DNA from: Flavobacterium azizsancarii
GTDB taxonomy: Bacteria > Bacteroidota > Bacteroidia > Flavobacteriales > Flavobacteriaceae
Length of the DNA: 64,000 nucleotides
Direction: 5' to 3'
Assembly: GCF_027980145.1 (NCBI RefSeq)
Contig: NZ_JAMZNK010000012.1
Span: forward strand, 1 to 64,000
The notes below the pieces were generated by a model. It saw only the letters and a list, made by a program, of their open reading frames with translations. It did no database searches and was not told the origin of the DNA. Positions 35,489 to 59,914 of this stretch are shown piece by piece (position 1 is the first letter of the stretch; every line of letters starts with the position of its first letter). The position numbers were made by a program, and so were the translations under genes.

Positions 35489-36952
35489 CTATCTCGGAGC
35501 CAGTTTGTTATAAGCTAATTCATTACTTGGGATTGCCCAAACATAATTCGCCGCTGTTGGCAAGACTTCAGGTGCAGCACCAGCATTTCCTGTTTTGGCA
35601 GGAAGCGCCTGAACTCTTCTCAATAAATCCGGCGTACGAAATCCTTCGCCCACCAATTCTATTCTTCTTTCGTTTAGAATTGTATTGACCAATTCGTCTT
35701 TTGTCGCAACTCCTGTTGTAAAAACATAAGCAGCATCAGAACGATTGCGAACTGCCGATAATAGCGTTCTGGCCAAAGGCAAATTGTCGCTTTGTGCCGC
35801 AGCTTCGGTATAATTCAAAAGGACTTCTGCGTATCGAATTACAGGAACATAATCAGTAAAAGGGGCACCATTTTTCTTGAATTTGTTCAGTAATTTTTGT
35901 CCGGTGGCATTAGTGATCACCAAACCTTTTCTGGCATCTGCAGAAGTTGGAGAAGCATAAACAGGATCTGCAATAATTCCTGCGGTATTAAAATAAATAA
36001 CCGGAGTTAAGTAGTTTGCGCCAAGTGCACTTTGCAAGGCTGGAGCTTCTGCCGCAGTAGTAAACGGAATTGAAAATATAGCTTCGTTACCTACATACGA
36101 ACCTCCAAAAACGTTAGCAACATTAGGTTCTAAACGATGTGTCAAACTTCCTGAAACGTATTGAAAAGGAGCTGTTGCAGGAACCAGTTTACTAGCTTCG
36201 GAAATTACTTTTGCATAATCGCCTTTGCTTAAATAAACTCTGGTTTTTAAAGCTATTGCTGATGCTTTATGCGCTCTTGAAACTGTAAGGATTCCTGTTG
36301 CATAACTTTCTGGTAAATCGACCTCGGCTTCGTCAAGATCTTTTAAAATTTGACTATAAACATCTGCAACGCTGCTAAAGGCTAAGTCGTTAAGTCCGCC
36401 CGATGTATTTCCTTTTAAGCGTAACGGAAGCGCCAGTGCAGCACTATTTTGCGCATAAGGTTTTGCATAGGTTTGCACTAAACTTAGATACGAAATCGCT
36501 CTTACAAACTTAGCTTCGGCGATATAATTCTTGCGTAAATCCTCTGTTACAACAGTAGATGTTGCCAGATTATCGATCAGAATATTCGAAAAGTTAATAG
36601 TCGTGTAAGCAACGCTCCAAACTGAGTTTACAAAATCTCCTGATGAAGTTATCGTCTGATTCCAAACATTGGCTCCGGTTGAATTGTTACCATCATTCTG
36701 ACTGAATTCGTTTCCTCTTTGTTCATTAAAAATAATGAAGCGGCCACCGTAAAAAGACGGATTGCTAAACTGACCGTATAGTCCGTTTACCTGACCTAAA
36801 ATTTTGGCTGGTGTGCTGAAAGCCGTTTCTGTAGAAATGCTCGTTTCAGGAACAGTATCTAAAGCATTATCGCTACATCCGGCCAATAATAAAGCTAGAA
36901 ATGGTGTGATAATAAAGGCTTTTTGTATGCTTTTTTTATAATTGAAAATCAT
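35489..36952 (-). CDS. SusD/RagB-type outer-membrane lipoprotein
   Basis: 487 residues with a lipoprotein signal (LALLLAGCSD, lipobox Cys26). SusD-like N-terminal motif TAFSTPAKILGQVNGLYG, TPR-like helices in the middle, and a C-terminal RYAEVLLNYTEAAA...NERRIELVGEGFR motif. SusD proteins cap the SusC channel and capture ligand. The gene is 30 bp downstream of susC. I count no Met after the initiator and no Cys other than Cys26, so the mature protein would hold one sulfur atom. Confidence 0.95.
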   Translation of the reverse strand: MIFNYKKSIQKAFIITPFLALLLAGCSDNALDTVPETSISTETAFSTPAKILGQVNGLYGQFSNPSFYGGRFIIFNEQRGNEFSQNDGNNSTGANVWNQTITSSGDFVNSVWSVAYTTINFSNILIDNLATSTVVTEDLRKNYIAEAKFVRAISYLSLVQTYAKPYAQNSAALALPLRLKGNTSGGLNDLAFSSVADVYSQILKDLDEAEVDLPESYATGILTVSRAHKASAIALKTRVYLSKGDYAKVISEASKLVPATAPFQYVSGSLTHRLEPNVANVFGGSYVGNEAIFSIPFTTAAEAPALQSALGANYLTPVIYFNTAGIIADPVYASPTSADARKGLVITNATGQKLLNKFKKNGAPFTDYVPVIRYAEVLLNYTEAAAQSDNLPLARTLLSAVRNRSDAAYVFTTGVATKDELVNTILNERRIELVGEGFRTPDLLRRVQALPAKTGNAGAAPEVLPTAANYVWAIPSNELAYNKLAPR

Positions 36953-36982
36953 GATGTTTTTATTTTTAATTAAGATGAATGC

Positions 36983-39900
36983 CTAGAAACCTACATTAAG
37001 TCCTAAAGTGAATACTACTGAATTGGCCGGCACGTTTTGATCTTTTCCGGAATTGATGGAGTTCCCGTTGATTGAAATCTCAGGATCTGAACCGCGGTAT
37101 TTTGTCCAGGTGTATAAATTAGAGCCCTGAGCATATACTTTTGCTGTTGAAATGTATTTGTTGACCAACTCGTTTTTTACCGGAATTCTATAGCTTAAAA
37201 TGATGTTTTTTACTTTCAGGTAAGATCCGTCTTCTACATAAGCAGAGTTGCTTGACGAGAAACCTCCTGAAAAACTGTCTCCGTAAATTAACTTAGGAAC
37301 ATCTGTAACCTGACCCGGAGTTGTCCAGCGATCTTTGATGAAAGTTCCGTTGTTGAAGAAACGCTGATCAGATAAAGTAGATCTTGTACCGTTGTACAAT
37401 TTGTTTCCTCCGGAGAAAGTCAGACCAATCGACAAATCGAAATTTTTATACGATAAATTGTTGTTCAAACCTCCGTAATAAGTGGGTAACGAGGGTCCCT
37501 GAATACGACCGTCACGATAGTTGTCGATTGCCGGAGCAGTACCACCATTGAGATAGGTAAAAGCTTTTGTAAGTGCATTGTATTGTACTTCTTCGTTATT
37601 GGCGTTGACATAAACACGGTTTCCGTTTTCAGGATTTACTCCCGTTGTTGGTACGGCAAAAATAGATCCTACAGAATAACCTTCTCTGGTAATATTCTGT
37701 ATTCCGAAAGTGCTTAGAACCGTTGGATAAATATCTCCGTAACCGCCTAATGAAGTTACTTTGTTTTTAATTGTTGATAAATTAAAACTTGCATTCCACT
37801 GAAAATCATTGCCATTTATAATGTTTGCATTAATCGAAAGTTCAAATCCTTTGTTGTATAAAGATCCAACGTTTGCTGCAATAGAATTGTTTGGGATTCC
37901 TTGTGATAAGGATTGAGGCGCATTCAAAATCAAATCGTTGATGTTATTTTTGTAATAATCTGCTTCAACTGTAATGCGGTTGTCAAACAATCCAAAATTG
38001 ATCCCGAAGTCAAACTTTTTGCTTGTTTCCCATTTTAAATCCGGATTGCCTGATTGCCCAAAACTAAGCGTTGGAACTCCTGCATAAGTACCTGCGTTAT
38101 ATTGCGATAAAGCGGCATAATCGTTTAATTCGCTGTTGCCCACAATTCCGTAACTTGCTCTTACTTTAAAAGCATTTAAGACATTTTTTATAGAAGAACT
38201 TTTAAAGAAATCTTCTTCAGATACATTCCATCCTACAGAAGCCCCGCCAAAATTTCCCCATTTATTTCCAGATGCCAATGCTGATAATCCGTCTCTTCTG
38301 AAGTTAAGATTCAGCAGGTATTTTTTGTCATAATCATAAGCAATACTGCTAAAATATGAAAGCAAAACATTTTCTGTCTGAACCGAAGGACCAGGGGCAA
38401 TGCTTGTAAATCCGCCTTGGTAACTCGTGAAGAAAGGATCAGTCAAACCGGTTTTTATTGCTCCCCAACCATCAATTTCGCGAACATTTTTCTCTTGTCC
38501 TAAAAGTACTTTCAAACTATGTTTTTGATCAAATACAGTCGAGTAGGTAAGGGTATTGGTCCAGTTTGATCTGGAATATTTGGTATTAGAGTTTGTTGCA
38601 GCTCCTTTAGTAGAGAAACCATCTCCACTAAACGGATTTCTAAATTCTTTGTTTTCTACTACAAAATTATTGATACCGTAAACCGTTTTGAATTTCAGGT
38701 TTTTGATGATTTCAAGTTCGGCATAAATACTTCCAATAAAAGTGTTGTTTTCAGAAGTGTTTTTATCCAGATCTAAAATCGTCTGTAAGTTATAAGCATT
38801 AAAAACTCCTAGTGAAGGACTGTTTGCTCCGTAGCCAATATTTCCGTTACTCGGATTAATGTTGTAAGATCCATCAGGATTATAAACCGAAACGTTTGAC
38901 GGTAAAATATAAGTAAGTCGGCCCAAAGGTTGTAAACCAATATATTGTGTGTTCACTGCATTTCCAGCCGAAGATCCAATCGAGTTAGGCGTTGATGATC
39001 CTGAGTTTGGTCCTGAATTTAGTGAATTGTTATACGAGAAATTAGTTCCTAAAGTTAGCGAGTTGTTCAATTTATGTTCGAAATTCAATCGGATTCCTTT
39101 TCTAACAAATTCATTCGTTCTTAGAATTCCTTCCTGATTAGAATAATTGGTAGAAATAAAATAACTAGTAGAATTTGTTGCGCCGGAGAAACTTAAATTA
39201 TGATTTTGCGAAACCCCTGTGTGATATGCTACATCATACCAATTGGTTCCTATTGTCGATCCGTCAGCATTTTGTCCTAATGCAAAACCAGGTGTAAGTC
39301 CCGCATTGGTTCTCGCTTCATTTTTGATGCTTACATAATCTTCGGCATTCAAAAGTTTTGGTAAATTCGTTGCTTTATTCCAGCTTACCCAAACATCATA
39401 ATTAACGTTTACTTTTCCTTTTTTTCCTTTTTTGGTCGTAATCACAATCACACCATTTGCTGCACGAGAGCCGTAAACTGCTGCCGCCGAAGCATCTTTT
39501 AAAACGTCGATCGATTCAATATCATTTGGGTTAATGTCTGATAACGGGTTGTTGCCAATTGCTCCTCCGGCAGTTCCGGTAAAAACGGTAACACCATCGA
39601 CAATTACTAAAGGATAAAGCGAACTTGTGATAGAGTTGATTCCTCGAATTCTAATAACAGGCGTACTGTTTAAAGATCCGCTGGGCTGAACAATGTTTAA
39701 TCCTGCTGCCTGACCGCCTAACAATTGATCAAAACTTTGTGCCGGACGATTGGCAATTTGTTTCGCATCAATTTTTGAGGTTGCTCCTGTAAAGGTTTTC
39801 TTGGCCGATGTTCCGTAACCTACAACCACGATTTCGTCTAGTTTTTCAACCTGTTCCGTTAGTTTGATGACCACCGGACTTCCGTCAACTATAACTTCTT

Positions 39901-40168
39901 TAGAATTGTACCCTATGTAACTAATGACTAAAGTGTAAGGGAATTTTTGTCCCGTTTGAAAGTAAAATTTCCCATCAATATCAGTTTCAACGCCATGTGT
40001 AGTTCCTTTGATATTTACCGAAGCGCCAATAATAGGCTGATTCGATATTTGATCTACTATTGTTCCGTTAAGTTTCGATTGAATATTTGGTTCCGTATTT
40101 TGAGCATTTATTCCGATGGAGATGAACAAAATGCTAATCCATAAAATAAGTTTTGTATTTTTTTTCAT
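36983..40168 (-). CDS. SusC/RagA-type TonB-dependent transporter
   Basis: 1061 residues: signal peptide (about 1-22, ending GINAQ), a carboxypeptidase-like domain (about 30-105), the DEIVVVGYG segment, TonB plug (about 120-250 with RIRGINSI and VLKDASAAAVYGSRAANGV) and a 22-strand barrel ending FTLGLNVGF. It imports ligand captured by the SusD partner with TonB energy. The context points to a sulfur-containing organic ligand. I find no Met after the initiator and no Cys in the whole protein. The N-terminal 110 residues closely match the other SusC in this window, while the barrels differ. Confidence 0.96.
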   Translation of the reverse strand: MKKNTKLILWISILFISIGINAQNTEPNIQSKLNGTIVDQISNQPIIGASVNIKGTTHGVETDIDGKFYFQTGQKFPYTLVISYIGYNSKEVIVDGSPVVIKLTEQVEKLDEIVVVGYGTSAKKTFTGATSKIDAKQIANRPAQSFDQLLGGQAAGLNIVQPSGSLNSTPVIRIRGINSITSSLYPLVIVDGVTVFTGTAGGAIGNNPLSDINPNDIESIDVLKDASAAAVYGSRAANGVIVITTKKGKKGKVNVNYDVWVSWNKATNLPKLLNAEDYVSIKNEARTNAGLTPGFALGQNADGSTIGTNWYDVAYHTGVSQNHNLSFSGATNSTSYFISTNYSNQEGILRTNEFVRKGIRLNFEHKLNNSLTLGTNFSYNNSLNSGPNSGSSTPNSIGSSAGNAVNTQYIGLQPLGRLTYILPSNVSVYNPDGSYNINPSNGNIGYGANSPSLGVFNAYNLQTILDLDKNTSENNTFIGSIYAELEIIKNLKFKTVYGINNFVVENKEFRNPFSGDGFSTKGAATNSNTKYSRSNWTNTLTYSTVFDQKHSLKVLLGQEKNVREIDGWGAIKTGLTDPFFTSYQGGFTSIAPGPSVQTENVLLSYFSSIAYDYDKKYLLNLNFRRDGLSALASGNKWGNFGGASVGWNVSEEDFFKSSSIKNVLNAFKVRASYGIVGNSELNDYAALSQYNAGTYAGVPTLSFGQSGNPDLKWETSKKFDFGINFGLFDNRITVEADYYKNNINDLILNAPQSLSQGIPNNSIAANVGSLYNKGFELSINANIINGNDFQWNASFNLSTIKNKVTSLGGYGDIYPTVLSTFGIQNITREGYSVGSIFAVPTTGVNPENGNRVYVNANNEEVQYNALTKAFTYLNGGTAPAIDNYRDGRIQGPSLPTYYGGLNNNLSYKNFDLSIGLTFSGGNKLYNGTRSTLSDQRFFNNGTFIKDRWTTPGQVTDVPKLIYGDSFSGGFSSSNSAYVEDGSYLKVKNIILSYRIPVKNELVNKYISTAKVYAQGSNLYTWTKYRGSDPEISINGNSINSGKDQNVPANSVVFTLGLNVGF

Positions 40169-40234
40169 TCTTGGTTATTGATTTTTTGTAATTAAAATGC
40201 CGGGAGATTGGATTTCTGGTGCATTCTTTATTGA

Positions 40235-40280
40235 GTGATAAATGTTCTTTAAGCCTTGCCATTTCTATTGCCGTAGAAAT
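40235..40280 (-). promoter_or_regulatory. conserved 46-nt hairpin leader upstream of susC (copy 1)
   Basis: On the minus strand a stem ATTTCTA / TAGAAAT with loop CGGCAA is followed by GGCAAGGCTTAAAGAACATTT, ending 66 nt before the susC start. It matches 59993-60038 at 44 of 46 positions, and the two differences form one base pair of the stem. Candidate cis-regulatory RNA. Confidence 0.6.
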
Positions 40281-40500
40281 ATTTAGGTTCGGTTTTGTAG
40301 TGGTATTTGTGTCATGTTTGTTCGTATTTAGTTGTTGTTTTTGGATGATTTATAGTTATGCGTGATACTTCTTCCTGATGAAAAAAAGCATCAAAATGAT
40401 TGTATAATATTCAATAAGAAACCGTTGAGGTTTAAGAATTTTCGTTTTTTTAATTCTGATTCTTTGGATAAAAATCACTTATAAACGAAAAGGAGGTGAG

Positions 40501-40817: not shown

Positions 40818-40838
40818 AAGTGTTTTAGGTAAATATTA

Positions 40839-41008: not shown

Positions 41009-42655
41009 TTACTTTTTCAAAGTTGCACCGCCAGGCATAACCTCTGTTTTCAGTTTGAACTTACTGTATTCAACCACTCCCGTTTTATCAGCCCAGTCAA
41101 AATAAGAAGCCGAAAGCTTGTTCACAATTCCTGGGTTTTGTTGTGCGACATTTGTAGTTTCGCCACGATCTGTTTCGATATTGTAAAGTTCCCATTCGTA
41201 CGACGGATAGGTCGAAACCAATTTCCATTTGCCATCTCTCACGGCTCTGTTTCCGGCTCTTTCCCAAAATAATGGTGCGCCTCTATCGACCTGCGAAACA
41301 TTATTAAATAAAACAGGCAACAAACTGCTTCCAACCAAAGGGTTTGTCGTCACACCATTATATTCTTTGGGATATTCAATTCCGGCCAATTCGTAAAAAG
41401 TAGGGGCAAGGTCAATAATATGTCCTGTTCCTTTGTCGATTCTGCCCGCTTTTATTTTTGATGGAAACCACGCAATAAACGGAGAACTGAATCCGCCTTC
41501 GTGCATATTATTTTTGTATTGTTGTAATGGAGTATTAGACAAATACGCCCAGTTTTGTTCCTGGTAATCAAACGATTCTGAAGTTCCAACGGGTCCGTCA
41601 TTTCGAACCAAACCTCTTCCTAACGGATTATACGAATTGAAACCACCTTGTGCTCCATTATCTGAAATGAAAATAATCAGCGTATTTTTATCTTTCTTCA
41701 ACGCTTTTAATTTCTCTAAAACTTTGCCCACGTTCTGATCCATATTATCGAGCATTGCGGCATAAACTTCCATTTTGGCTTTCCAGAATTGTTTCTCGTC
41801 ATAGGTTAGTTTACTCCATTCCGGTACTTCCGGATCTCGTGGAGAAACGGTTTGATTCGCGGGTAAAATGCCGTTTGCTTTTAGTTTTTCGATTCTTTTT
41901 TCTCTGAGAACATCCCAGCCTTCATCAAATTTCCCTCTATATTTAGCAATGTCAATCGGTTTTGCCTGCAACGGCCAATGCGGAGCTGTAAATGCCAAAT
42001 ACAAAAAGAAGGGTTTGTTTTCTTTATTTTGTTCGTCTAAGAAAGTCATGGCATTATTCCCGATCTCATCTGTAAAATAATACGAATCATCTTTGGGATG
42101 CAGTTCTTCATTATTACGAATCAATTTTACAGGATAAGGCGTTTTTCCAAATGGCAAAGGTTTGGTATCAAAATAGTTTGATGCTCCTTTTAAGATCCCA
42201 TAGAATTTATCAAATCCTCTTTGATTTGGCCATTGCGCCTGATCTTCAGAACCTACGTGCCATTTTCCGGATAATAAAGTGCTGTAACCGCCGGAACGGA
42301 AAACTTCTCCCAATGTCAAAGATTCTTTGTTTAGATATCCCTGATATGCCGGTAATCCCAAATTGACATCAAAAAATCCCATTCCGGCTTTGTGCTGATA
42401 TTGTCCCGTTAGCAAAGAGCCGCGGGTTGGCGCACAAATTGAGTTATTGTAAAATTCGCGTAAGCGTAAACCTTCGCTGGCTAATTTATCTAAGTTGGGT
42501 GTTTTAATTTCGGAACCGTAATTTCCTAAATCAGAATAGCCCATATCATCGACCATGATTAAAATGATGTTGGGTTTTTCAGCAGTTGTTTTATTTTGTG
42601 CATTTAAAGCCACTACAGAGAGTAGAAGATTTAGGGAAAGAATTGTTTTTTTCAT
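41009..42655 (-). CDS. secreted S1-family sulfatase
   Basis: 548 residues with a signal peptide (about 1-20, ALNAQ). Metal-binding Asp36-Asp37 in IMVDDMGYSD, the formylglycine site Cys74 in NSICAPTRGSLLTG, and GKWHVG further on. It hydrolyses sulfate esters after a maturation enzyme turns Cys74 into formylglycine. Similar to arylsulfatase-like periplasmic enzymes. The substrate is not predictable, because S1 subfamilies span glycan, steroid and aryl sulfates. Met content is normal, unlike several neighbours. It is the last gene of its transcript. Confidence 0.93.
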   Translation of the reverse strand: MKKTILSLNLLLSVVALNAQNKTTAEKPNIILIMVDDMGYSDLGNYGSEIKTPNLDKLASEGLRLREFYNNSICAPTRGSLLTGQYQHKAGMGFFDVNLGLPAYQGYLNKESLTLGEVFRSGGYSTLLSGKWHVGSEDQAQWPNQRGFDKFYGILKGASNYFDTKPLPFGKTPYPVKLIRNNEELHPKDDSYYFTDEIGNNAMTFLDEQNKENKPFFLYLAFTAPHWPLQAKPIDIAKYRGKFDEGWDVLREKRIEKLKANGILPANQTVSPRDPEVPEWSKLTYDEKQFWKAKMEVYAAMLDNMDQNVGKVLEKLKALKKDKNTLIIFISDNGAQGGFNSYNPLGRGLVRNDGPVGTSESFDYQEQNWAYLSNTPLQQYKNNMHEGGFSSPFIAWFPSKIKAGRIDKGTGHIIDLAPTFYELAGIEYPKEYNGVTTNPLVGSSLLPVLFNNVSQVDRGAPLFWERAGNRAVRDGKWKLVSTYPSYEWELYNIETDRGETTNVAQQNPGIVNKLSASYFDWADKTGVVEYSKFKLKTEVMPGGATLKK

Positions 42656-44358: not shown

Positions 44359-45975
44359 TTACAAATCGACAAAGTATTTTTGTTTGCCAAAATCAAATTC
44401 ATAATGAGTTAAATTTGGCCATAAAGGTTTTACTAAACCCTTTTCCCAATTTTTCAATGCAAGATGTAATTCTTTTACTTTTGCCGGATTTTTTTGAGCA
44501 AGATCTGTAGTTTCAGATTTGTCTGAAGCTAAGTTATAAAGCCATTCTTCATGGGTTTTTCCGCTTATGATTAATTTCCAGTCACCGCTTCTTATGGCTT
44601 TTGCATCGCCGGAACGCCAGTACAAAGTTTTGTGTGCTTCTTTATTTTCGTTGACTGTACTTACAAGATCAACACCATCATAAACTCGGTCTTTTGGTAA
44701 ATCAGAATGAATAGCAGCAGCAATTGTAGCAAAAATATCCAATGTACTTACCGGAGTTTTATAGATTGTATGAGGTTTGATTTTTCCTTTCCACGAAAGT
44801 GCAAACGGAACATTTACGCCACCTTCAAAATGAGAAAACTTTCCTGCTTTCAGAGGTGCGTTTGTCGTAGCAAAAGTATAATCGGCACCACCGTTGTCGC
44901 TGGCAAAAATGATTAAGGTGTTATCTTCCAGACCTTCTTTTTTGACTTTTGCCCTGATTCTTCCCACGGCATCGTCTAAGGCGCTGATCATGGCAAAATA
45001 GACACGTTTGTTCTCGTCTTTTACATTCGGGAAACGATCGTAGTATTTTTTGCGAACCTGAAAAGGTGTATGTGGCGCATTAAACGGCACGTACAATAAG
45101 AAAGGTTTGTTTTTATTTCGATCAATAAAAGCTTCTGCTTCATCAGCAAATGTTTCGGTTAGATAGGCTTTATTGTGTATAATGGTGGTATCACGACGAA
45201 TTTGTCCGATTCCAACGCGTCCATTTCCCCAAATCATTTTATCTGTAAAATCTTTGTGATGATGGTTGATAATATCCGGATTATCATCTTCAGGAGTATA
45301 AAGCGAAAACGCCTGATAAAACCCATAATGATAATCGAAACCTCTGTCTAAAGGAAAAAAGCCTTTGTTGTGTCCCAAATGCCATTTTCCGATAATTCCT
45401 GTGCTGTAACCTTCTCTTTTGGCCAAATCGGCAAACGTAATTTCAGATTGTGGCAAACCTTGTGTGGCTATCGAAGCTTCGTTTGGATAATTGATTTTAT
45501 CATTCAATCTCCAATTATTGGTATTGATCAGATACTTGAAACCATAATATTCAAGATTGTTTTTTGGATACCGATCCCCAGGCTGATATTCATGTCCAAA
45601 ACGTTCCTGATAACGCCCGGTTAAAATTCCTGCACGAGAAGGTGAACAAATCGAAGCCGAAACATAACCATCCTGAAAAGTAACTCCTGACGCTGCCAGA
45701 GAATCTATTTGCGGAGTTGGGGTTGATTTTCCTCCGTATAACGAAATATCATATTTTCCTAAATCATCGGCAAGAAGAATAATGATATTTGGTTTTTTAA
45801 AAGAACTATCTACAGGAATTTTTTCAGCCAGAAATTCCTTTTTTCCTTCAAGTAATTTTGGGTCTGGTTTTATTAAGGTTCCATCTGTATTGATGGGCCA
45901 GAATAAAAATATAGCCAGAATAGCAATTATAATCAGGATTGGAAAAACAATCTTTTTTGTTTTTGATAATGCCAT
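44359..45975 (-). CDS. membrane-anchored S1-family sulfatase
   Basis: 538 residues. The N-terminus has a hydrophobic segment (about 9-27) with no clear cleavage site, so it is probably anchored in the inner membrane facing the periplasm. Metal Asp70-Asp71 in LLADDLGKYD, formylglycine site Cys110 in ASICSPSRAGILTG, GKWHLGHN and SDNGG are all intact. I count two Met after the initiator and one Cys, the catalytic one. Substrate unknown. Confidence 0.92.
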   Translation of the reverse strand: MALSKTKKIVFPILIIIAILAIFLFWPINTDGTLIKPDPKLLEGKKEFLAEKIPVDSSFKKPNIIILLADDLGKYDISLYGGKSTPTPQIDSLAASGVTFQDGYVSASICSPSRAGILTGRYQERFGHEYQPGDRYPKNNLEYYGFKYLINTNNWRLNDKINYPNEASIATQGLPQSEITFADLAKREGYSTGIIGKWHLGHNKGFFPLDRGFDYHYGFYQAFSLYTPEDDNPDIINHHHKDFTDKMIWGNGRVGIGQIRRDTTIIHNKAYLTETFADEAEAFIDRNKNKPFLLYVPFNAPHTPFQVRKKYYDRFPNVKDENKRVYFAMISALDDAVGRIRAKVKKEGLEDNTLIIFASDNGGADYTFATTNAPLKAGKFSHFEGGVNVPFALSWKGKIKPHTIYKTPVSTLDIFATIAAAIHSDLPKDRVYDGVDLVSTVNENKEAHKTLYWRSGDAKAIRSGDWKLIISGKTHEEWLYNLASDKSETTDLAQKNPAKVKELHLALKNWEKGLVKPLWPNLTHYEFDFGKQKYFVDL

Positions 45976-46040
45976 GTTTTTTTGTTTTAGAAATAATGGA
46001 CTTAGTGATAATCTTTGTCAAAGTTTTTATGCGCATTTTT

Positions 46041-46138: not shown

Positions 46139-46160
46139 AAAATGGTGATTATGATTGCGT

Positions 46161-50780: not shown

Positions 50781-50816
50781 TTTTACTTTTTTTTTAGTTG
50801 AATGTTGTGTTTTTTT

Positions 50817-51058: not shown

Positions 51059-51089
51059 AAGACTGGGGTTACTTTGACAAAGATTACGC

Positions 51090-51641
51090 TTACTTCCCTA
51101 ACTTTTCTACCGTAACACCATGTTGCAATTCCGCTAATGTTTTTACCGGATATGCTTTTGAAACTAAATAGCGAAACAAAATCAATCCTTTAGTTGTAGG
51201 ACTGTAAATGATTTTCTCTTTCGGAATATTTTTCAATGCTTCAGCGGTACTTCCTTCAGGCGCTAAATAATATTCGAATTTAGCTTTTACTTTTTCTTCG
51301 TTTTCTACAAAAAAGTTAGTGGTGTTTTCCTGATAAGCCGAGATTGACCAATACGTCGAATCAGGAACAATCCCTGAAATTTTCAACACATTTTCTTTCA
51401 AATCATAACTGATGGTTGAATACAAAAAGTCAGGATTTGGTAATGGAATTACCCTGCTGTTGTCAGCATTGGGCTGATCTCCAAATCGGGGAGTGTTGAC
51501 AATGCCCAGACTTTTTTCTGCAAACTTTTTTTGCACGTAATATGGAGTGACCCAGATCGTGAGGTAGTAAAAACTTACTGCAATTACTACAAGAATCAAG
51601 GCGAAGATGCCTTTTTTCAAAATTGGTTTTGTTGCTGACAT
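51090..51641 (-). CDS. membrane-anchored DUF1254-like protein
   Basis: 183 residues with one N-terminal transmembrane helix (about 10-32), then a domain with PNPDFLYSTISYDL, resembling the DUF1254 motif NRDTLYS...D, and YWSISAY. Related in fold and probable partner to the DUF1214 protein encoded 309 bp further along, separated by repeats. No Met after the initiator and no Cys. Function unknown. Confidence 0.72.
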   Translation of the reverse strand: MSATKPILKKGIFALILVVIAVSFYYLTIWVTPYYVQKKFAEKSLGIVNTPRFGDQPNADNSRVIPLPNPDFLYSTISYDLKENVLKISGIVPDSTYWSISAYQENTTNFFVENEEKVKAKFEYYLAPEGSTAEALKNIPKEKIIYSPTTKGLILFRYLVSKAYPVKTLAELQHGVTVEKLGK

Positions 51642-51710: not shown

Positions 51711-53636
51711 TTATTTATTTTTCTTGTGAACGCGTTGTTTCAAAACATCCTGCCAATCGATAAAAGGGTAGATGTTGTTTTTCTTCGCCTGATCGTCAAA
51801 AGCAGCCTGAAGTTCTTTTAATTTTTTAGGATTTTTTTTGGCTAAATCGACTCTTTCGTTAAAGTCAGTATTTAGATTGTATAATTCCCAAACATCATTG
51901 TCGTAGGTACTTGGTCCTGTATTTTTAGCCAAAGCGCCATTATCAACGATATCAATAAAATCAGGATGATGAGGTGCTGCAGCTTTCCATCCGTCTTTGT
52001 ACAAAGCTCTTGATCCAAAAATATAATAGTATTGAATTTTATGTCTTGAAGGTGCTTTTGCATCAGAGTAAGAATACGCTAGTGAAGTTCCTTGAATCGA
52101 ATCCTGAGCAATTCCGCGTATTTCTTTTGGGGTTGTAATACCAACAGTTTCCAGAGTGGTTGGTAAAATATCAATTACATGACCGTATTGATTACGAATT
52201 CCGGGAGTTTTTATTCCTTTTGGATAATACACAATCAACGGATTACGTGTTCCGCCTTCAGAATGTGCATCTTGTTTCAGATTTCTAAACGGTGTATTTG
52301 CCGCCAATGCCCATCCGTAAGGATAATTTCCTTCAACAGCTTCAGGAGTTCCCATAAGATCAATTTTCGCAAGATTTTCTTTTACAGCATCTTCTTTTGT
52401 ACCATTTCCGAATAATTTTTTCAATAAAGGCTGATCGATAGTTCCAGATCCTGTTCCTTCTTTACTAGCTCCGTTATCTCCTAAAACAATGTAGAAAACA
52501 GTATTATCTAACTGATTTATTTCTTTCAGATGATTTACGATTCGGCTTACTTCGTAATCGGTATATTCAAGATATCCAGCGTAGATTTCCATAAAACGGG
52601 CATATAATTTCTTTTCATCCGGAGACAAAGTGTTCCATGCTTTTACGTATGAATCGCGCGTTGGCAATTTGGCATCAGCCGGAATTAAACCTAATTTCTT
52701 TTGGTTGGCAATTACTTTATCGCGGTAAACATCCCAGCCTTCATCAAATTTACCTTTGTATTTGTCGCTCCATTCTTTAGCCACCTGATGCGGAGAATGT
52801 GTTGCTCCCGGCGCATAGTACAAAAAGAAAGGTTTGTTTGGCGCTGCAGTTTTTTGGCGATCGATATAAGTAATGGCTTTATCAGTGATTAATTCACTTA
52901 AGTGTTTTCCTTTTAAATCAGCTGTAAATTGATTTTTAGATTTATCATTTCCTGCATTATTTAGTCTCGTATTTCCGTTAAGCCAAGTTTGATCTTCAAC
53001 CAAATCGGGATTATACTGATCGGTTTCTGAACCTAAGAATCCGTAGAAATGGTCGAAACCTTTTCCGGTTGGCCATCTGTCAAACGGTCCGGCATCTGTA
53101 GCATCTTCGTCTGGCGTGACACCATATTTTCCAACGGCAAAAGTGTTGTATCCATTGTCGCGTAAAATCTCAGCAATTGTTCCTGCCGAAGACGGGATTC
53201 TACCATCGTATCCGGGAAATCCAGCCGACATAGCCGTATGCGAAAATCCACCTACGTGAACGGCGTGTGCATTACGACCTGTTAATAATCCTGCACGGGT
53301 TGGTGCACAAATTGCAGTGGTGTGAAAGTTGGTATAACGTAAACCATTATTGGCTAAATTCTCAAAAGTGGGCGTATTGATCAAACCTCCAAAAGCACTT
53401 GTAGCTCCGTAACCAACATCATCCAGTAAAATCCAGACAACGTTTGGCGCACCTTCGGGAGCTTTTACAGGATCTGGCCAATATTCTTTAGAATCTGCAA
53501 GGGTTTTGCCAATTACACCTTTGTAATTGGGATCTGGTTTTGATTGCCCAAAACTTAATTGGGCGACTATTAATGCCGTAATCAAAAGCCCTTTATTAGG
53601 ACTTTTGATTGCAATATTATTTTTAAACTTTTTCAT
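51711..53636 (-). CDS. large secreted S1-family sulfatase
   Basis: 641 residues with a long signal region (about 1-31). Metal Asp72-Asp73 in LLDDVGYGATS, formylglycine site Cys110 in TAICAPTRAGLLTG. Related to the larger arylsulfatases that have the AGPFDRWPTGKGFDHFYGF segment. The usual G-K-x-H motif after the formylglycine region reads GKYGVTP: Lys170 is kept but the His position is Gly172, so activity may be altered. I count three Met after the initiator and one Cys, the catalytic one. Last gene before the DUF1254 gene. Confidence 0.9.
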   Translation of the reverse strand: MKKFKNNIAIKSPNKGLLITALIVAQLSFGQSKPDPNYKGVIGKTLADSKEYWPDPVKAPEGAPNVVWILLDDVGYGATSAFGGLINTPTFENLANNGLRYTNFHTTAICAPTRAGLLTGRNAHAVHVGGFSHTAMSAGFPGYDGRIPSSAGTIAEILRDNGYNTFAVGKYGVTPDEDATDAGPFDRWPTGKGFDHFYGFLGSETDQYNPDLVEDQTWLNGNTRLNNAGNDKSKNQFTADLKGKHLSELITDKAITYIDRQKTAAPNKPFFLYYAPGATHSPHQVAKEWSDKYKGKFDEGWDVYRDKVIANQKKLGLIPADAKLPTRDSYVKAWNTLSPDEKKLYARFMEIYAGYLEYTDYEVSRIVNHLKEINQLDNTVFYIVLGDNGASKEGTGSGTIDQPLLKKLFGNGTKEDAVKENLAKIDLMGTPEAVEGNYPYGWALAANTPFRNLKQDAHSEGGTRNPLIVYYPKGIKTPGIRNQYGHVIDILPTTLETVGITTPKEIRGIAQDSIQGTSLAYSYSDAKAPSRHKIQYYYIFGSRALYKDGWKAAAPHHPDFIDIVDNGALAKNTGPSTYDNDVWELYNLNTDFNERVDLAKKNPKKLKELQAAFDDQAKKNNIYPFIDWQDVLKQRVHKKNK

Positions 53637-53697: not shown

Positions 53698-55266
53698 TTA
53701 TTTTATTTTATTCCAATCTTCGACACCTACTTTTACGGACCATTGCTGATGTAATTCAATCAGGGTTTGGAGTAATTTTGGTTCGGATTTTGCCAGGTTT
53801 TTGGTTTCTGTCCGGTCGGTGACAAGATTGTACAATTCCCAAGGCTGATTGTTTTCGGCTATAGCTTTCCAATCACCTTTTCGTACTGCTTTACTGCCTT
53901 CATGTTCCCAAAACAAAGCTTCATGAGCATCAGATTGTTGTCCTTCAAATTCTTTTTTTAAGCTAATACCTTCTAAAGCTGTCAGACTTTTTCCTTGAAA
54001 AGAATCGGGATATTGAATACCGGCATACTCCAAAAGAGTTGGAAAAATATCGATCAAATGACTTACTCTGTTGCTTTGTGTTCCAGCCTTAATGTGTTTT
54101 GGATAATAAGCAATAAAAGGTGTCGCAATTCCGCCTTCGTGGGTGTTCTTTTTGAATAATTGAAAAGGCGTATTGCTCACATTTCCCCACGGACTTTCGT
54201 AACTGTCAATCGAAGCAACTGATCCTGGTGTTCCATTTTTTTGTGTAACATAATTCCAGTTTTTCACATCATCGGCACTTCCGCCATTATCCGAAAGGAA
54301 GAGAACAAGCGTATTATCTTCTTCACCCAAAGATTTCACTTTCGCTAGGATTTCTCCAATTCCGGCATCCATTCGGTCGACCATAGCGGCGTAAATTGCC
54401 ATTCGCGTATCCCATTTGTCTTTTTCTTCGGCACTTAGTTTTTCCCAATCGGGTACTTTTTCACAACGATTTGATAAGTCCCAGTTTTTATCAATGATTC
54501 CCAGTTCTTTTAATTTCTTAAAACGACTTGCTCTCAATTGATCCCAGCCTTCTAAATATTTGCCTTTGTATTTTGCAATATCTTCGGGCAATGCCTGAAT
54601 GGGCCAATGTGGAGCATTATAAGCCACATATAGAAAAAAAGGCTGTTGCTGATTGCGCTGTTTTTCTAAAGAATTAAGCGCGAAATTGGTAATTTCCTGG
54701 GTGAGATAGGTAGAAGTATCGGTGCGGATAATTTCTTTATCTCCTTTCATAAAAGTGACTTTTCTTCCGTCGTTATACAAAGGCTGTGAGTTAAAATAAC
54801 TACTTCCATTGTTTTGTAAAGTAAATGAATCATCAAACCCCCGATTCACCGCCCAGGCCGATGGTACAAGACCAACGTGCCATTTTCCAGAAACAATAGT
54901 ATTGTATCCTGCCTGTTTTAGTGCTTGCCCAATTGTGATACAATGCTCGTTTAAATATCCCTGATAGGCAGGAAATCCTTTGTCCTGAACCATATCTCCA
55001 ATACCTGCCTGATGCGGATACAATCCCGTGAGCAATGACGCACGGGAAGGACAGCAACGTCCGGCATTGTAAAACTGCTTGATAATAAGTCCGTTTTTAG
55101 CGAGCTTATTCAGGTTTGGAGTTTTAATTTCTGAGCCAAAAGCACCAATATCTGAGAAACCTAAATCATCTGCCAAAATGACGATGATGTTAGGTTGTTT
55201 CTTCTGTGCAAATAGCTGAAATTGTACAACAACCAATAGGGCGAGAATGAACAGTTTTTTAATCAT
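53698..55266 (-). CDS. secreted S1-family sulfatase
   Basis: 522 residues with a signal peptide (about 1-21). Metal Asp33-Asp34 in LADDLGFSD and the formylglycine site Cys71 in GRCCPSRASLLTG, here with a second Cys next to it. GKWHVG and SDNGG intact. Similar in order and length to the sulfatase at 41009. Met and Cys content is normal. It is 28 bp downstream of SusD and belongs to that operon, so its substrate is probably the SusCD ligand. Confidence 0.93.
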   Translation of the reverse strand: MIKKLFILALLVVVQFQLFAQKKQPNIIVILADDLGFSDIGAFGSEIKTPNLNKLAKNGLIIKQFYNAGRCCPSRASLLTGLYPHQAGIGDMVQDKGFPAYQGYLNEHCITIGQALKQAGYNTIVSGKWHVGLVPSAWAVNRGFDDSFTLQNNGSSYFNSQPLYNDGRKVTFMKGDKEIIRTDTSTYLTQEITNFALNSLEKQRNQQQPFFLYVAYNAPHWPIQALPEDIAKYKGKYLEGWDQLRASRFKKLKELGIIDKNWDLSNRCEKVPDWEKLSAEEKDKWDTRMAIYAAMVDRMDAGIGEILAKVKSLGEEDNTLVLFLSDNGGSADDVKNWNYVTQKNGTPGSVASIDSYESPWGNVSNTPFQLFKKNTHEGGIATPFIAYYPKHIKAGTQSNRVSHLIDIFPTLLEYAGIQYPDSFQGKSLTALEGISLKKEFEGQQSDAHEALFWEHEGSKAVRKGDWKAIAENNQPWELYNLVTDRTETKNLAKSEPKLLQTLIELHQQWSVKVGVEDWNKIK

Positions 55267-55293
55267 TTTATTTATTGATAATTAGAGCTTTGA

Positions 55294-56766
55294 TTAATAT
55301 CCAGGGTTTTGTGGCAATCCTACGGGATCAAAACTTCTTTCGCTTTGCGGAATCGGATATAGGTTATTTCTTTCTGTAACAGAGTTTTTAGCCGTTACTT
55401 TTTTCACTTCGGTAACAAGGGTTCCCCAACGAACCAGGTCAAACCATCTTTGTCCTTCCTGAACAAATTCTTTTTTACGTTCTTCCTGAATGGCTGCCCT
55501 AAAAGTAACTTGTGTTAATCCCGCTAAATCGATAGTTGCGTCTGGGGTTGCAATTGGTTTTCCAAAAGCTCTTCGTCGTATCTGATTGATCAATTCATAA
55601 GCTTCGGGAGTTGGCGCACCTTGTTCGTTTATGGCTTCTGCCAGAGACAAAAGGATATCAGCATAGCGAATAATTGGAAAATTGATAGCGACATTTCCCG
55701 GTGTTGCCAAATTGCTAAAATCGATATATTTTTTGAAAATTGGTTTCGGGAAAGTATATGTATTTGCTGTACCGGTAATTGGTAATTGTTTCGCATAACT
55801 TTCATCTCTTCTTGTATCTCCCAGAGCATATATGTCATAAAACAAAGCTACATCTGAGACAATATCTGCCGGTTCTGTTGCTGTGTAACCAATGAATGAT
55901 GTGGCTTGAAAATTATTTCCGCTTGATCCGTTTCCTGCCTGATTTGCTTCAAACTGAACAGAGAATATATGCTCTTTTCCGTTCTTTTTGGCTTTATTGA
56001 ATATATCTGCAAAACTTTCGAATAGCCCATATCCGTAACCGCCATTAATTACTTCTCTGGCTTTTAAGATTGCGTTAGGATAATCTTTTCTTGTCAGGTA
56101 TACTTTGGTCAAAATCGCTTTTGCAGCTCCTGATGTTGCGCGTCCTGCATCACTTGCAGGATAAGTTGCCGGTAAAGTTTCAGCGGCATTTAAGTCTGAA
56201 ATAATTTGTGTGTATACTGCGTCTACAGTTTCTCTTCTTGACTTTAAACTTTCTAATTTTATAGAAGTTGGTTCGTGCAATACAATCGGAACTCCGCCCC
56301 AAAGACGAACTGCCTGAAAATACAACAAGGCTCTGATGAATTTTGCTTCATTGATTAATCTTGTTTTTACAGCTTCTGTACCCGCTACTTTAGGTATATT
56401 ATCGATAGAAACATTCGCTCTGTTTATTCCGTTATAGATTTGTCGCCAGGCAACCTGAACACGATCATTTGTAGCATCATGAGTCAGATTACTCATCGCT
56501 CTTACCTGAGGATTCGTTGCAGAAACTCCCGCTGATGCATAATCAGATCCCATATCTGTTAAGAAATAAAGGTTTCGACCAAATAAGCTCTGTTCTCCCG
56601 GATCAAGACTTAACGAGGCATAGGCAGCAGTTACGCTGGCAATAGCATCATCTTGTGTTTTAAAGTAATTATCTTCGGTTACAAAAGAGGTTGGTGTTAC
56701 CTCTAAATCTGTGCATGATGCAAATAAACCGGCACTTAATAGTATTGTTAGTATGATCTTTTTCAT
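55294..56766 (-). CDS. SusD/RagB-type outer-membrane lipoprotein (second pair)
   Basis: 490 residues, lipobox LFASC with Cys18. SusD N-terminal motif YFKTQDDAIASVTAAYASL, helix motif EAKFIRALLYFQAVRLWGGVP, C-terminal EERKKEFVQEGQRWFDLVRWG. Partner of the SusC whose gene ends 16 bp upstream. The EGQRWFDLVRWG ending and the AKFIRALLYF block are the standard type, unlike the SusD at 35489 which ends NELAYNKLAPR. Two Met after the initiator. The only Cys is the lipobox one. Confidence 0.95.
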   Translation of the reverse strand: MKKIILTILLSAGLFASCTDLEVTPTSFVTEDNYFKTQDDAIASVTAAYASLSLDPGEQSLFGRNLYFLTDMGSDYASAGVSATNPQVRAMSNLTHDATNDRVQVAWRQIYNGINRANVSIDNIPKVAGTEAVKTRLINEAKFIRALLYFQAVRLWGGVPIVLHEPTSIKLESLKSRRETVDAVYTQIISDLNAAETLPATYPASDAGRATSGAAKAILTKVYLTRKDYPNAILKAREVINGGYGYGLFESFADIFNKAKKNGKEHIFSVQFEANQAGNGSSGNNFQATSFIGYTATEPADIVSDVALFYDIYALGDTRRDESYAKQLPITGTANTYTFPKPIFKKYIDFSNLATPGNVAINFPIIRYADILLSLAEAINEQGAPTPEAYELINQIRRRAFGKPIATPDATIDLAGLTQVTFRAAIQEERKKEFVQEGQRWFDLVRWGTLVTEVKKVTAKNSVTERNNLYPIPQSERSFDPVGLPQNPGY

Positions 56767-56782
56767 TATGTATATTTTTTAC

Positions 56783-59700
56783 TTAGAAAGTTACGTTCAG
56801 GCCGGAAATGAATGTTTTAGAATTTGGATAAGAGCCAAAGTCAATTCCAGGATATAAGTTGTTTTGTTCGTATGAACTTACCTCCGGATCATAACCGGTA
56901 TATTTTGTCCATGTAATTAAATTTTCGGCAGAGATATAGAATTTAATACTCTTTGTTCCTAATTTTTGAGAAAGGCTTTTAGGCAATGTGTACCCTAAAG
57001 TGATTAATTTTAATCTTAAAAAAGAAGCATCTTCTACATAACGTTCTGATACGATTCCCAGAGGAGAACTTGTTGCTCTTGGAATTTCATTGCTTGGATT
57101 CGTTGGAGTCCAGCGGTCATCTAGTGTAACATTAGCATTAGTTCCCAGTGTAGAAATTTCTAATTGTTGGTTTAATGCATTAAAGACCTTTCCGCCATAA
57201 GAACCCTGAAAAGAGAAATTAAGATCGAAATCGTGATAAGAAACCGTGTTACTGAAACTTCCGACAAATTTAGGCTGTGAGCTTCCAAGATTTCCTTTGT
57301 CAGCAGCTGTAATTACGCCATCGCCATTTGTATCTACATATTTTCTGTCACCTACTTTTGTGTTGGCTAAACTGTTAATCTTAGGCTGCGTATTTACTTC
57401 TTCCTGAGTCTGGAAAATTCCGTTGGTTTTATATCCCCAGAAAGTTCCTAAAGGCAATCCTACTTTTACAGTTACAGGTTGTTGTTGCAATAAAGAACCA
57501 TTTGGCACTACAGGAAAAAACTGATCTACACCGTTTCCTATAGAAACTACTTTATTTTTGTTGGCAGAGAAGACAAAATTAGAATTCCAGGAGAAATTCT
57601 CTGTTTTGATGTTTTCTGTGATCAAACCAACTTCAACACCTTTATTTTCAACACCACCAATATTTTGAAGAACTGTAGCATATCCTGAAGTTAATGGTAC
57701 TGGGACATTAATAAGCAAATCATTTGTTTTTTTGTAGTAAACATCAAACACAAAGTTTATTTTTCTGTCTAATAAAGACAAATCTAAACCCACGTTGTAT
57801 TGATTTGTTTTTTCCCATTTCAAATCCGGATTTGCCAGTCGGGTAGGAGCTAGTCCCGTGTATAAAGTACCTCCAAAAGAATAATTTACAGAACCCATTG
57901 CAGGAAGAGAAAGGTAGTTGCCAATCTCTTGATTTCCTGTTGTTCCGGCTGTTATTCTAAGTTTAGCTTCAGTTACACCTTTTATGTTTTTGGCAAAATC
58001 TTCATCCGTAATATTCCATGAAAATCCTGCTGACGGGAAATATCCCCATAGCGATTCAGAACCAAATCTTGACGAACCATCTGCACGGGCAGAAAGCGTT
58101 AAATTATATTTTCCTCTATAAGAATAATTTATTCTGGTCAACCATGATTTTAATACACTTTCGAATGCATCGCTGTATGGTTTTACCGCAACACCATCCT
58201 GAAGTGCATTATAAGTGTTGGCATCATTTACAAAAGTATTGGCGCCGGCATTTACAACTTCACCCTGAGTGTATTGAAGTGTATATCCTCCTAAAACTGA
58301 GAACTTATGGTTTTCGCCAAAAGTGGTATTGTAGTTCAGAGTATTTTCATTTAGTACAGAACTTACCAATCTGTCTCCAACAGATGCTAACCCTTTTGTT
58401 CCAGCACCTGTTGTAGTAGTTGCCGGAGCATAATAATTTTGTTTTGTATTAATTACGTCACCACTCACGGCAACCTTCGCAACCAGTTTTTTGGTTATTT
58501 TATATTCACCAAATAAGCTGGTCAAAATTCTATTAATTTTAGTTTCATTGGTGGTACTTACCAAATCGTTTATAGGGTTTGGTATTATACCATTAACCGC
58601 TGTTGCGTAAGGATTGTTTGTTAAATTATAACTTCCGTCAGCATTTTTAATTGGTACTACTGGCGGTTGATATAAAGCAACAACTAAAGGACTTGGTGAT
58701 CTTCCGGCTGTAGCTCCTCCATTGGTTCCTACACCATTTGAAACTGAATTACTGTAGTTGGCATTGACACCAAATTTAAAATTCTGGGAATAATTTCTTT
58801 CGTAGTTAACACGTAGAGAAATTCTTTTGAAATCAGAAGCAATCACAATTCCATCCTGTTGAAAGTAACCTGCCGAAACTGCGTATCTTGATTTTTCATC
58901 TCCTCCTGAAAATGATAATTGATGATTTTGAACCGGTGCAGCAGTTCTAAAAAGAGCATCTTGCCAGTCATAACTTCCGGATGTTTTAAAAGCTTCTATT
59001 TGTGCAGCCGAAAAAGACGGAGCCTGTCCAATACTTGCCTGAACGTCATTGCGTAAGCTTGCCCATTGGCTGGCATTCATTAAATGTAATTTTTTCGAAA
59101 CATTCTGAAACCCAAAATAACCCTGATACGAAATATTATCCTGTCCTTTTGTACCTTTTTTGGTAGTGATGATTACAACACCATTTGCACCACGAGATCC
59201 ATATATTGCAGTTGCAGACGCATCTTTTAATACTTCGATAGATTCAATATCGCCGGGATTTATAGTAGACAATACATTGATTGATGAACCGGCGTTTGAA
59301 ACTCCCGCTGTACCATTATTATTGTCATTATAAATCAATATTCCGTCTACTACATAAAGTGGTTCATTACCCGCAGTAATCGAATTTCCTCCTCTAATAC
59401 GTACACTTGAAGAAGCTCCGGGACGTCCTGAACTTTGCGTAACTACCACTCCGGCAATTGCGCCCCGTAATAAATTATCTGCAGATGAGGTAACCTGAGC
59501 TAAATTTGCTTTAGGTACTGAAGCTACAGATCCTGTAATGTCTTTACGTTTTTGAGCACCGTAACCCACAACTACTAACTCATCTAATTCCTGACGTTCT
59601 TCTTTTAGATGAATTGTAACAGGATTTTTGTTTACAACTATTTCCGCTTTTTTGTATCCAATGTAAGAGACAATCAATGTATAAGGAAATTTTTGACCGG

Positions 59701-59914
59701 TCTGAAAATAAAATTTTCCTTCTGCATCCGTCTGAACACCGTGAGTTGTTCCTTTTATATTTATTGAAGCTCCTATAATAGGTTGATTTGTAATATCATC
59801 GACTACAGTTCCGTCAAGCTTAGATTGAATAAGTGGGGTTGTATTTTGGGCATTAATTCCGGCTGATAACAACAGGATAAAAAGCAATGAGTATATTTTT
59901 AATTTTTTTTTCAT
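56783..59914 (-). CDS. SusC/RagA-type TonB-dependent transporter (second pair)
   Basis: 1043 residues from the ATG at 59912-59914. The frame extends 18 codons upstream to a TTG, but the signal peptide begins at the ATG (MKKKLKIYSLL...GINAQ). Carboxypeptidase-like domain (about 30-105), plug with RIRGGNSI and VLKDASATAIYGSRGANGV, barrel ending FISGLNVTF. It imports ligand from the SusD partner. Two Met after the initiator and no Cys. The N-terminal domain is nearly the same as in the SusC at 36983, the rest differs. Confidence 0.96.
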   Translation of the reverse strand: MKKKLKIYSLLFILLLSAGINAQNTTPLIQSKLDGTVVDDITNQPIIGASINIKGTTHGVQTDAEGKFYFQTGQKFPYTLIVSYIGYKKAEIVVNKNPVTIHLKEERQELDELVVVGYGAQKRKDITGSVASVPKANLAQVTSSADNLLRGAIAGVVVTQSSGRPGASSSVRIRGGNSITAGNEPLYVVDGILIYNDNNNGTAGVSNAGSSINVLSTINPGDIESIEVLKDASATAIYGSRGANGVVIITTKKGTKGQDNISYQGYFGFQNVSKKLHLMNASQWASLRNDVQASIGQAPSFSAAQIEAFKTSGSYDWQDALFRTAAPVQNHQLSFSGGDEKSRYAVSAGYFQQDGIVIASDFKRISLRVNYERNYSQNFKFGVNANYSNSVSNGVGTNGGATAGRSPSPLVVALYQPPVVPIKNADGSYNLTNNPYATAVNGIIPNPINDLVSTTNETKINRILTSLFGEYKITKKLVAKVAVSGDVINTKQNYYAPATTTTGAGTKGLASVGDRLVSSVLNENTLNYNTTFGENHKFSVLGGYTLQYTQGEVVNAGANTFVNDANTYNALQDGVAVKPYSDAFESVLKSWLTRINYSYRGKYNLTLSARADGSSRFGSESLWGYFPSAGFSWNITDEDFAKNIKGVTEAKLRITAGTTGNQEIGNYLSLPAMGSVNYSFGGTLYTGLAPTRLANPDLKWEKTNQYNVGLDLSLLDRKINFVFDVYYKKTNDLLINVPVPLTSGYATVLQNIGGVENKGVEVGLITENIKTENFSWNSNFVFSANKNKVVSIGNGVDQFFPVVPNGSLLQQQPVTVKVGLPLGTFWGYKTNGIFQTQEEVNTQPKINSLANTKVGDRKYVDTNGDGVITAADKGNLGSSQPKFVGSFSNTVSYHDFDLNFSFQGSYGGKVFNALNQQLEISTLGTNANVTLDDRWTPTNPSNEIPRATSSPLGIVSERYVEDASFLRLKLITLGYTLPKSLSQKLGTKSIKFYISAENLITWTKYTGYDPEVSSYEQNNLYPGIDFGSYPNSKTFISGLNVTF

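Follow-up and report, generated by a model that had tools for sequence, protein, structure and literature searches.

The stretch analysed here (the window) comprises 64,000 nucleotides of Flavobacterium azizsancarii, positions 1 to 64,000 of contig NZ_JAMZNK010000012.1 (C33; 136,543 bases), in a genome of 5.84 Mb. Sulfur-related genes occupy 25244-59914, all on the minus strand, in what looks like an island for scavenging sulfur. It encodes two SusCD importers, four sulfatases, an alkylsulfatase, an SsuD-like monooxygenase, a CysE-type serine acetyltransferase, the cysteine synthase CysK, and an SrpI-type encapsulin with its cysteine desulfurase (Table 1). An amino acid permease, an amidohydrolase, a PF03601 protein (CH698) and a fatty-acid hydroxylase family protein are further members. 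The two SusCs (TIGR04056) and the two SusDs (PF07980, 73 and 109 bits) all score over the cutoffs of their families, and SusC1 is 97% identical to the SusC1 of Flavobacterium frigidimaris and of F. bizetiae.

A first-pass annotation of this DNA had proposed that many proteins of the locus are nearly devoid of methionine and cysteine. Counting Met after the initiator and Cys, and expressing their sum (M+C) as a percentage of residues, we reproduced every count it quoted, including the 18 sulfur residues in the 462 of LpdA. SusC1, said to lack both residues over its whole length of 1061, does lack them; about 13 would be expected from the genome's other SusCs. The same calculation gives 12.7 for SusC2, and 2 are seen. 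Negative-binomial P-values, which allow for overdispersion, are 4e-5 for SusC1, 2e-3 for SusC2 and, relative to 34 other SusDs, 3e-3 for SusD1 and 1.3e-2 for SusD2. The depletion of the SusCs is not a chance effect. By z-score, Met is the most depleted of the twenty residues in each of the four proteins, and SusC1 further shows an excess of Asn and a shortage of Asp and Arg. The sulfur residues that remain in the depleted proteins are the lipobox Cys of both SusDs, the CxPxR Cys of the sulfatases at 44359 (SulfB) and 51711 (SulfC), the thioredoxin CGAC motif and a few Mets, so that functionally required residues make up most of what is left; the CxPxR Cys presumably has a formylglycine role. 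The CysE-type enzyme, which lies outside the interval 35489-59914, is depleted as well when read from its inner ATG, and was counted into the depleted set.

If the genome's other SusC and SusD proteins had the same Met and Cys content, a link to sulfur supply would fall, as the first-pass annotation had pointed out. We therefore measured all 51 SusCs over the TIGR04056 cutoff and all 42 SusDs found by PF07980, and the window pairs rank lowest in both families. SusC1 (0.00%) and SusC2 (0.20%) are first and second among the SusCs, the other 49 of which average 1.23% (standard deviation 0.43, lowest 0.39) and are essentially without Cys; SusD1 (0.22%) and SusD2 (0.43%) are first and second among the SusDs. 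To these we added four SusC partners that PF07980 does not list (two tested as SusD-like_2, two named by position); one of the four, the partner of the SusC at C90:226006, falls below SusD1, with no Met and a lipobox Cys only. For comparison, 181 open reading frames (ORFs) of at least 200 amino acids, taken from stretches of the genome not selected for SusCs, average 2.46%, with a first percentile of 0.42. Among the enzymes, M+C is 1.77-2.96% in five further sulfatases of the genome. Its three CysK paralogues contain 4 Met and 3 Cys, 5 and 3, and 8 and 1 over about 300 residues, beside which the island CysK, with 4 and 0 in 306, is mildly low. The housekeeping-type CysE has 2 Met and 3 Cys in 234-235 matched residues in nine of nine genomes, and the island type 0-2 Met and 0-2 Cys.

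The same depletion recurs in sulfur loci of other species. Eight full-length SusC1 orthologues from other Flavobacterium species have neither residue in 1061 positions each; a ninth (L096) has a broken frame, and its first 252 residues are likewise free of both. Of 150 Flavobacterium genomes, 15 have a CysE that matches the island enzyme with 74% identity or more. Using it as a marker, we read the DNA beside the gene in the 14 genomes besides our own (the G748 stretch, near a contig end, holds no SusC); the 19-40 kb read in the other 13 contain 17 SusCs, all at 0.51% or less, with 17 SusDs at 0.66% or less. The gene-specificity that the first-pass annotation had suspected from the normal composition of SulfA, SulfD and the monooxygenase also holds: these three proteins are undepleted (1.82%, 1.72% and 2.58%). 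In all the genomes read, values of 1.3-2.3% are kept by SulfA, SulfD, the fatty-acid hydroxylase and CH698, in contrast to the low SusC, SusD, SulfB, SulfC and DUF1214/1254 proteins.

In F. seoulense, the three lowest SusCs of all 28 over the cutoff (0.00, 0.30 and 0.61%) lie within 25 kb of one another in a sulfur cluster, where Pfam identifies an FGE-type sulfatase-modifying protein, TauE and a rhodanese/metallo-beta-lactamase protein, and where sulfatases, CysE and CysK were named from sequence starts. A Chitinophagales metagenome-assembled genome (MAG) has a gene order like that of the window, with SusC, SusD, amidohydrolase, SsuD-like protein and permease (the last three named from sequence starts). 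Its SusC (0.29%) and its SusD, with no Met and a lipobox Cys only, are the lowest of 18 SusCs and 17 SusDs in a sample that was hand-picked from about 53 SusCs and included the island SusC on purpose. Another SusC of this MAG (L164) was flagged by its N-terminal similarity and its 0.50% M+C; a PF00884 sulfatase follows its SusD, and the genes farther along appear by eye to encode an FAD oxidoreductase and membrane proteins resembling those of the F. seoulense cluster.

Two membrane-like proteins (L134:8680-11507 and L243:6843-9580) gave no match to Pfam where this was tested. The F. seoulense versions, of 448 and 489 amino acids, contain 1 and 2 Met respectively and adjoin a SusCD pair and an FAD oxidoreductase; similar-looking proteins are also found in a Chitinophagales MAG. 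An additional island module, made of a SusC, a SusD and an arylsulfotransferase, occurs in F. hydrophilum (L092:1737-7667), F. pectinovorum (L093:1723-7651) and genome G002 (L219:10938-16544), as assigned by Pfam for the first and by similarity to it for the other two. In this module, too, the SusC has little Met.

Depletion is absent from homologues encoded elsewhere than in sulfur loci, and the proposed tie between depletion and sulfur supply is supported. A Saprospiraceae SusC (L098), 52% identical to SusC1, has 17 Met and 1 Cys, and its neighbours appear by eye to encode a respiratory complex. The alkylsulfatase has matches at E 1e-50 or better in three of 296 genomes of the order: our own, one congener (96% identity) and G129, from another family (43%). 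The G129 protein (L154) has 18 Met and 1 Cys in 661 residues, versus 1 and 0 in the window, and we recognised no sulfur gene by eye in 20 kb around it. In F. frigidimaris, a SusCD pair located directly past the cysteine desulfurase at the island's edge, lacking the N-terminal module and the leader described below, has 1.00 and 1.51% M+C; position alone is thus not the cause of depletion. The encapsulin was tried as a class-wide marker of sulfur loci and abandoned: it is present in only five of 395 genomes, and the stretches read for the three outside the genus (40, 5 and 20 kb) contain no SusC.

The Flavobacterium S-locus SusCs have a common 5' cassette, in which a short leader ORF and a conserved hairpin precede an N-terminal module that is nearly identical among them. 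This module scores 230-378 in these S-type SusCs versus at most 124 in the genome's 48 other SusCs; two Chitinophagales SusCs (L170 and L164) have a weaker one (155 and 163). Module and leader together mark three of the genome's 51 SusCs, whose M+C ranks are 1, 2 and 5. Three or more distantly related barrel lineages bear the cassette. A tree built from the barrel region has 66 rows, 11 of which are labelled S, and its starred branches force a minimum of four gains or losses of this label, involving the SusC1 group, the SusC2/SusCx group, C90 and a single SusC of F. seoulense.

The third SusC with the cassette, C90 (G000:C90:226006-229092; L080:7911-12533), has 0.48% M+C, ranking fifth of 51, and is the one with the Met-free SusD. 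Inspection by eye of the 19 kb and 13 kb surrounding this pair revealed no recognisable sulfur gene. From its module and leader, we predict that it is a third sulfur-regulated importer of the genome, an orphan member.

In the two window genes, the short upstream ORF (uORF) lies about 115-165 nucleotides before the SusC start and ends just before the hairpin. In most leaders the hairpin reads ATTTCTG-CGGCAA-CAGAAAT and is followed by a conserved TTAAAGAA stretch. Our leader model, R1, was built partly from the window SusC1, SusC2 and C90 leaders, and its matches end about 20 nucleotides before the SusC ATG. In the genome it retrieves these three training sequences and none of the remaining SusCs; it gives no match in stretches L250, L251 and L252. 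Double changes are seen in two of the eight hairpin pairs, a modest support for the structure, which lies close to the uORF stop. Rfam has no family reaching its gathering score on the leader. Weak Rfam matches over the SusC2 leader (E 0.12-0.37) were dismissed, as the families look unrelated.

Cysteine is over-represented in the uORFs. Among 35 leaders, 28 encode Cys and 19 encode CC, relative to 17% and 0.9% of the genome's short intergenic ORFs (n = 1,175); reduced to 23 distinct peptides, the counts are 18 and 11. In the 28 uORFs of ten residues (22 distinct DNA sequences), Cys occupies codons 7, 8 and 9 in 27, 28 and 26 cases, with TGT/TGC exchange at codons 7 and 8, and the residue changes freely at codons 3 and 6. 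An R1 search of 150 genomes of the genus located the leader in 33. In 16 further genomes (best locus each, mostly SusC2 orthologues by sequence starts), Cys is present in 16 of 16 uORFs and CC in 15 of 16, and the partial SusCs downstream contain 21 Met and Cys in 7,459 residues (0.28%, range 0.00-0.93). Over the same partial stretch, the genome's 48 other SusCs average 1.37% (lowest 0.21).

What could link Met- and Cys-poor importers to leader peptides that usually contain Cys? We consider it quite probable that these are sulfur-sparing proteins, made in sulfur starvation, and that the SusC operons are switched by a cysteine leader peptide. Selection appears to have purged Met and Cys from many exported-looking island proteins and from CysE, and we infer that it did so because these proteins are made when sulfur is scarce; the selective force would be sulfur economy or, alternatively, translation with scarce charged tRNA-Cys and tRNA-Met. 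When charged tRNA-Cys is scarce, the ribosome would stall on the Cys codons of the uORF, leaving the hairpin free to form, and SusC expression would rise. In Cys-replete cells the ribosome would reach the stop codon beside the hairpin and disturb it. Such a switch would tie SusC production to Cys shortage, when proteins free of Met and Cys stay cheap to make. That the hairpin is the on-state is our guess from the spacing of uORF and hairpin. As for the origin of the system, there is perhaps an even chance that a sulfur-response 5' cassette (polycysteine sensor uORF, hairpin, signal peptide and N-terminal SusC domain) was joined to several distant SusC barrels, recruiting importers to a cysteine-controlled regulon, after which barrel, SusD and enzymes lost their Met and Cys. 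The depletion would then be a signature by which to find importers that are regulated by sulfur but whose substrate is unknown, the C90 pair being an example.

Several observations weigh against this scheme. SulfA, SulfD, the monooxygenase, the permease and the fatty-acid hydroxylase sit in the island without being depleted, and for the island CysK and the two encapsulin proteins the reduction in M+C is mild. Low SusCs also occur away from recognised sulfur genes: in our own genome C75 (0.39%), surrounded by peptidases and a thioredoxin-like protein, and C78 (0.41%), both judged mostly by eye; in the Chitinophagales MAG L159 (0.30%, nearly down to the 0.29% of the MAG's island SusC), on whose 29-kb contig no sulfur gene was recognised by eye; and in Nonlabens L105:9935-12979 (0.10%, 1 Met in 1014 amino acids), which adjoins ribosomal-protein-like genes with no evident sulfur context. 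Among 25 SusDs of F. seoulense, the two measured in the sulfur cluster take ranks 1 and 4 (a third, truncated by the end of the stretch, is left aside). Codon usage does not correlate with M+C over 21 island genes (rho -0.22, P = 0.35) and gives no sign of unusual expression. Between close species the substitution signal is weak, with one in 233 differences versus 11 in 572 in controls (P = 0.20), and weak too in the variable columns with Met (1 of 522 versus 8 of 577, P = 0.04). Concerning the leader, R1 detects nothing above noise outside the genome's SusC genes, including the island's other genes (the C81 match has E 0.85), nor any leader in the Chitinophagales loci searched, and the hairpin, with no T-run after it, is not like an intrinsic terminator. 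Finally, the uORF has no Cys in seven of the 35 leaders, namely those of the window SusC1, L093, L094, L096, L097, L099 and C90; the SusC1-type uORF of L090 and L095 is MTQIPLQNCS*.

Is the composition simply inherited, a few low-Met SusC/SusD lineages happening to sit in sulfur loci in the absence of any selection for sulfur? C75 is sister to the SusC1 group, and the replicate genomes hold mostly orthologues, which are not independent events (the same species may even recur among the genomes). However, the repeated changes of the S label on the barrel tree, the low content of unrelated families (alkylsulfatase, sulfatases, CysE, DUF1254) and the 17 Met of L098, which belongs within the SusC1 group and has no sulfur neighbours in the DNA read, make descent alone an improbable explanation. 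Still less probable, in our opinion, is that surface and periplasmic proteins shun Met and Cys as oxidisable residues. Most depleted proteins do look exported and SusC paralogues are nearly Cys-free anyway, but the 48 SusCs without the module share that location and are not comparably depleted (only two are at 0.51% or less), and CysE, presumably cytoplasmic, is depleted when its housekeeping-type paralogue is not.

A subtler alternative accepts sulfur sparing and denies that the uORF senses Cys: the cassette would be kept for mRNA stability, for the binding of a protein to the hairpin or through co-inheritance with the N-terminal domain. In its favour are the Cys-less uORFs, those of the window SusC1 and C90 among them, a hairpin better conserved than the uORF and an N-terminal domain that travels with the leader. 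The frequency of CC relative to background, the synonymous exchange of Cys codons and the presence of Cys in all 16 further genomes argue the other way, and we hold this alternative to be possible though rather doubtful.

Related systems are known. As cited in PMC5513900, cyanobacteria make Met- and Cys-poor light-harvesting proteins (Mazel and Marliere 1989), and the assimilation enzymes of E. coli and yeast are sulfur-depleted (Baudouin-Cornu 2001). In these cases, as summarised there, proteins of sulfur supply or starvation shun Met and Cys as those of the window do; unlike them, the depletion here reaches outer-membrane SusCD proteins of about 1,000 amino acids and is seen against 49 paralogues of one genome. 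For the SrpI encapsulin of family 2A and its cysteine desulfurase, PMC8049743 reports upregulation on sulfur starvation in S. elongatus, and by analogy the island would be induced under the same condition. The window shell and cargo genes are adjacent, as in that system, and over their NCBIfam cutoffs; in contrast to what is described there, they lie within a SusCD/sulfatase island and their products are mildly low in M+C.

Comparing members of one family in one genome that differ in their role in sulfur supply offers a clean natural experiment in which elemental cost can be examined for its part in selection. An apparent limit is reached in SusC1, with 1,061 residues free of internal Met and Cys in the window and in eight other species. 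Our results also suggest a cysteine-sensing leader peptide in Bacteroidota, of which we know no described example. Mycobacterial polycysteine leaderless uORFs, found upstream of operons, are reportedly cysteine-responsive, to go by the title of a 2020 report by Canestrari (doi 10.1111/mmi.14498). They would share with the Flavobacterium leaders several Cys codons in a short ORF upstream of an operon; ours differ in belonging to another phylum, in preceding SusC importers and in being followed by a conserved hairpin, and their own response to cysteine is a prediction. A literature search that left most subscription journals aside returned, among the matches listed, no title or abstract start dealing with Met- and Cys-poor SusCD proteins or with a cysteine leader peptide in Bacteroidota. 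Taken as predictors, two features of the sequence, namely the leader together with the N-terminal module and the scarcity of Met and Cys, may indicate which among the dozens of SusCD importers in a genome handle sulfur compounds.

Table 1. Features of the sulfur island and of the two SusC leaders (window positions; Met counted after the initiator; aa, amino acids)
Feature	Position	Strand	Remarks
SusC1, TonB-dependent SusC/RagA transporter	36983..40168	-	TIGR04056 776 bits; 0 internal Met, 0 Cys in 1061 aa
SusD1 lipoprotein	35489..36952	-	0 Met; lipobox Cys26 only, in 487 aa
SusC2	56783..59914	-	TIGR04056 905 bits; 2 Met, 0 Cys in 1043 aa
SusD2	55294..56766	-	2 Met, 1 Cys (lipobox) in 490 aa
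Leader uORF upstream of SusC2, MKKIQNCCCK*, Cys codons conserved in relatives	60047..60079	-	
Conserved leader hairpin upstream of SusC2, GCCATTTCTG-CGGCAA-CAGAAATGGC	60016..60041	-	R1 match 59933-60082 (training sequence)
Leader uORF upstream of SusC1, MTQIPLQNRT*, no Cys	40283..40315	-	
Leader hairpin upstream of SusC1	40260..40281	-	R1 match 40188-40318 (training sequence)
Alkylsulfatase (metallo-beta-lactamase, Alkyl_sulf_dimr/C)	46889..48841	-	1 Met, 0 Cys in 650 aa
Rhodanese-thioredoxin, signal-like N-terminus	46161..46877	-	0 Met, 2 Cys in 238 aa (thioredoxin CGAC)
Sulfatase SulfB	44359..45975	-	2 Met, 1 Cys in 538 aa; Cys in CxPxR
Sulfatase SulfC	51711..53636	-	3 Met, 1 Cys in 641 aa; Cys in CxPxR
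DUF1214 protein	50184..50780 (ATG start)	-	0 Met, 0 Cys in 198 aa
DUF1254 protein	51090..51641	-	0 Met, 0 Cys in 183 aa
CysE-type serine acetyltransferase	29703..30527	-	0 Met, 0 Cys in 274 aa from inner ATG
Family 2A encapsulin cargo cysteine desulfurase	25244..27178	-	NF041166 over cutoff; M+C 0.93%
Family 2A encapsulin shell (SrpI-like)	27162..28082	-	NF041162 over cutoff; adjoins cargo gene; M+C 1.31%
Cysteine synthase CysK	28250..29170	-	4 Met, 0 Cys in 306 aa
SsuD-like flavin monooxygenase, undepleted	32245..33411	-	TIGR03565 match below cutoff; M+C 2.58%
Sulfatase SulfA, undepleted	41009..42655	-	M+C 1.82%
Sulfatase SulfD, undepleted	53698..55266	-	M+C 1.72%

Some assignments in Table 1 call for comment. 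The monooxygenase scores 239.5 bits with TIGR03565 (cutoff 518.2) and is therefore called SsuD-like only. The CysE-type protein is below the cutoff of TIGR01172 (169 bits, cutoff 210.65) and at 150.3 bits with the EpsC model NF041874 (cutoff 150). A SusC2 start at 59968 is a mechanical extension to a TTG, and the ATG is at 59914. The rhodanese domain of the 46161-46877 protein has no Cys at all, hence no catalytic Cys, the sole Cys pair being that of the thioredoxin motif.

Flavo-1 RNAs (RF01705) at 29330-29407 and 50820-50901 were examined as sulfur regulators and set aside, as 97 matches in the genome point to a dispersed element; a further one lies at 10419-10560. Inverted repeats GTCATCCCGAGGAACGAGG...CCTCGTTCCTC, which also look like dispersed repeats, are present upstream of CysK (29171-29702) and SulfB (45976-46160), and a variant of them is found upstream of the DUF1214 gene (50781-51089).

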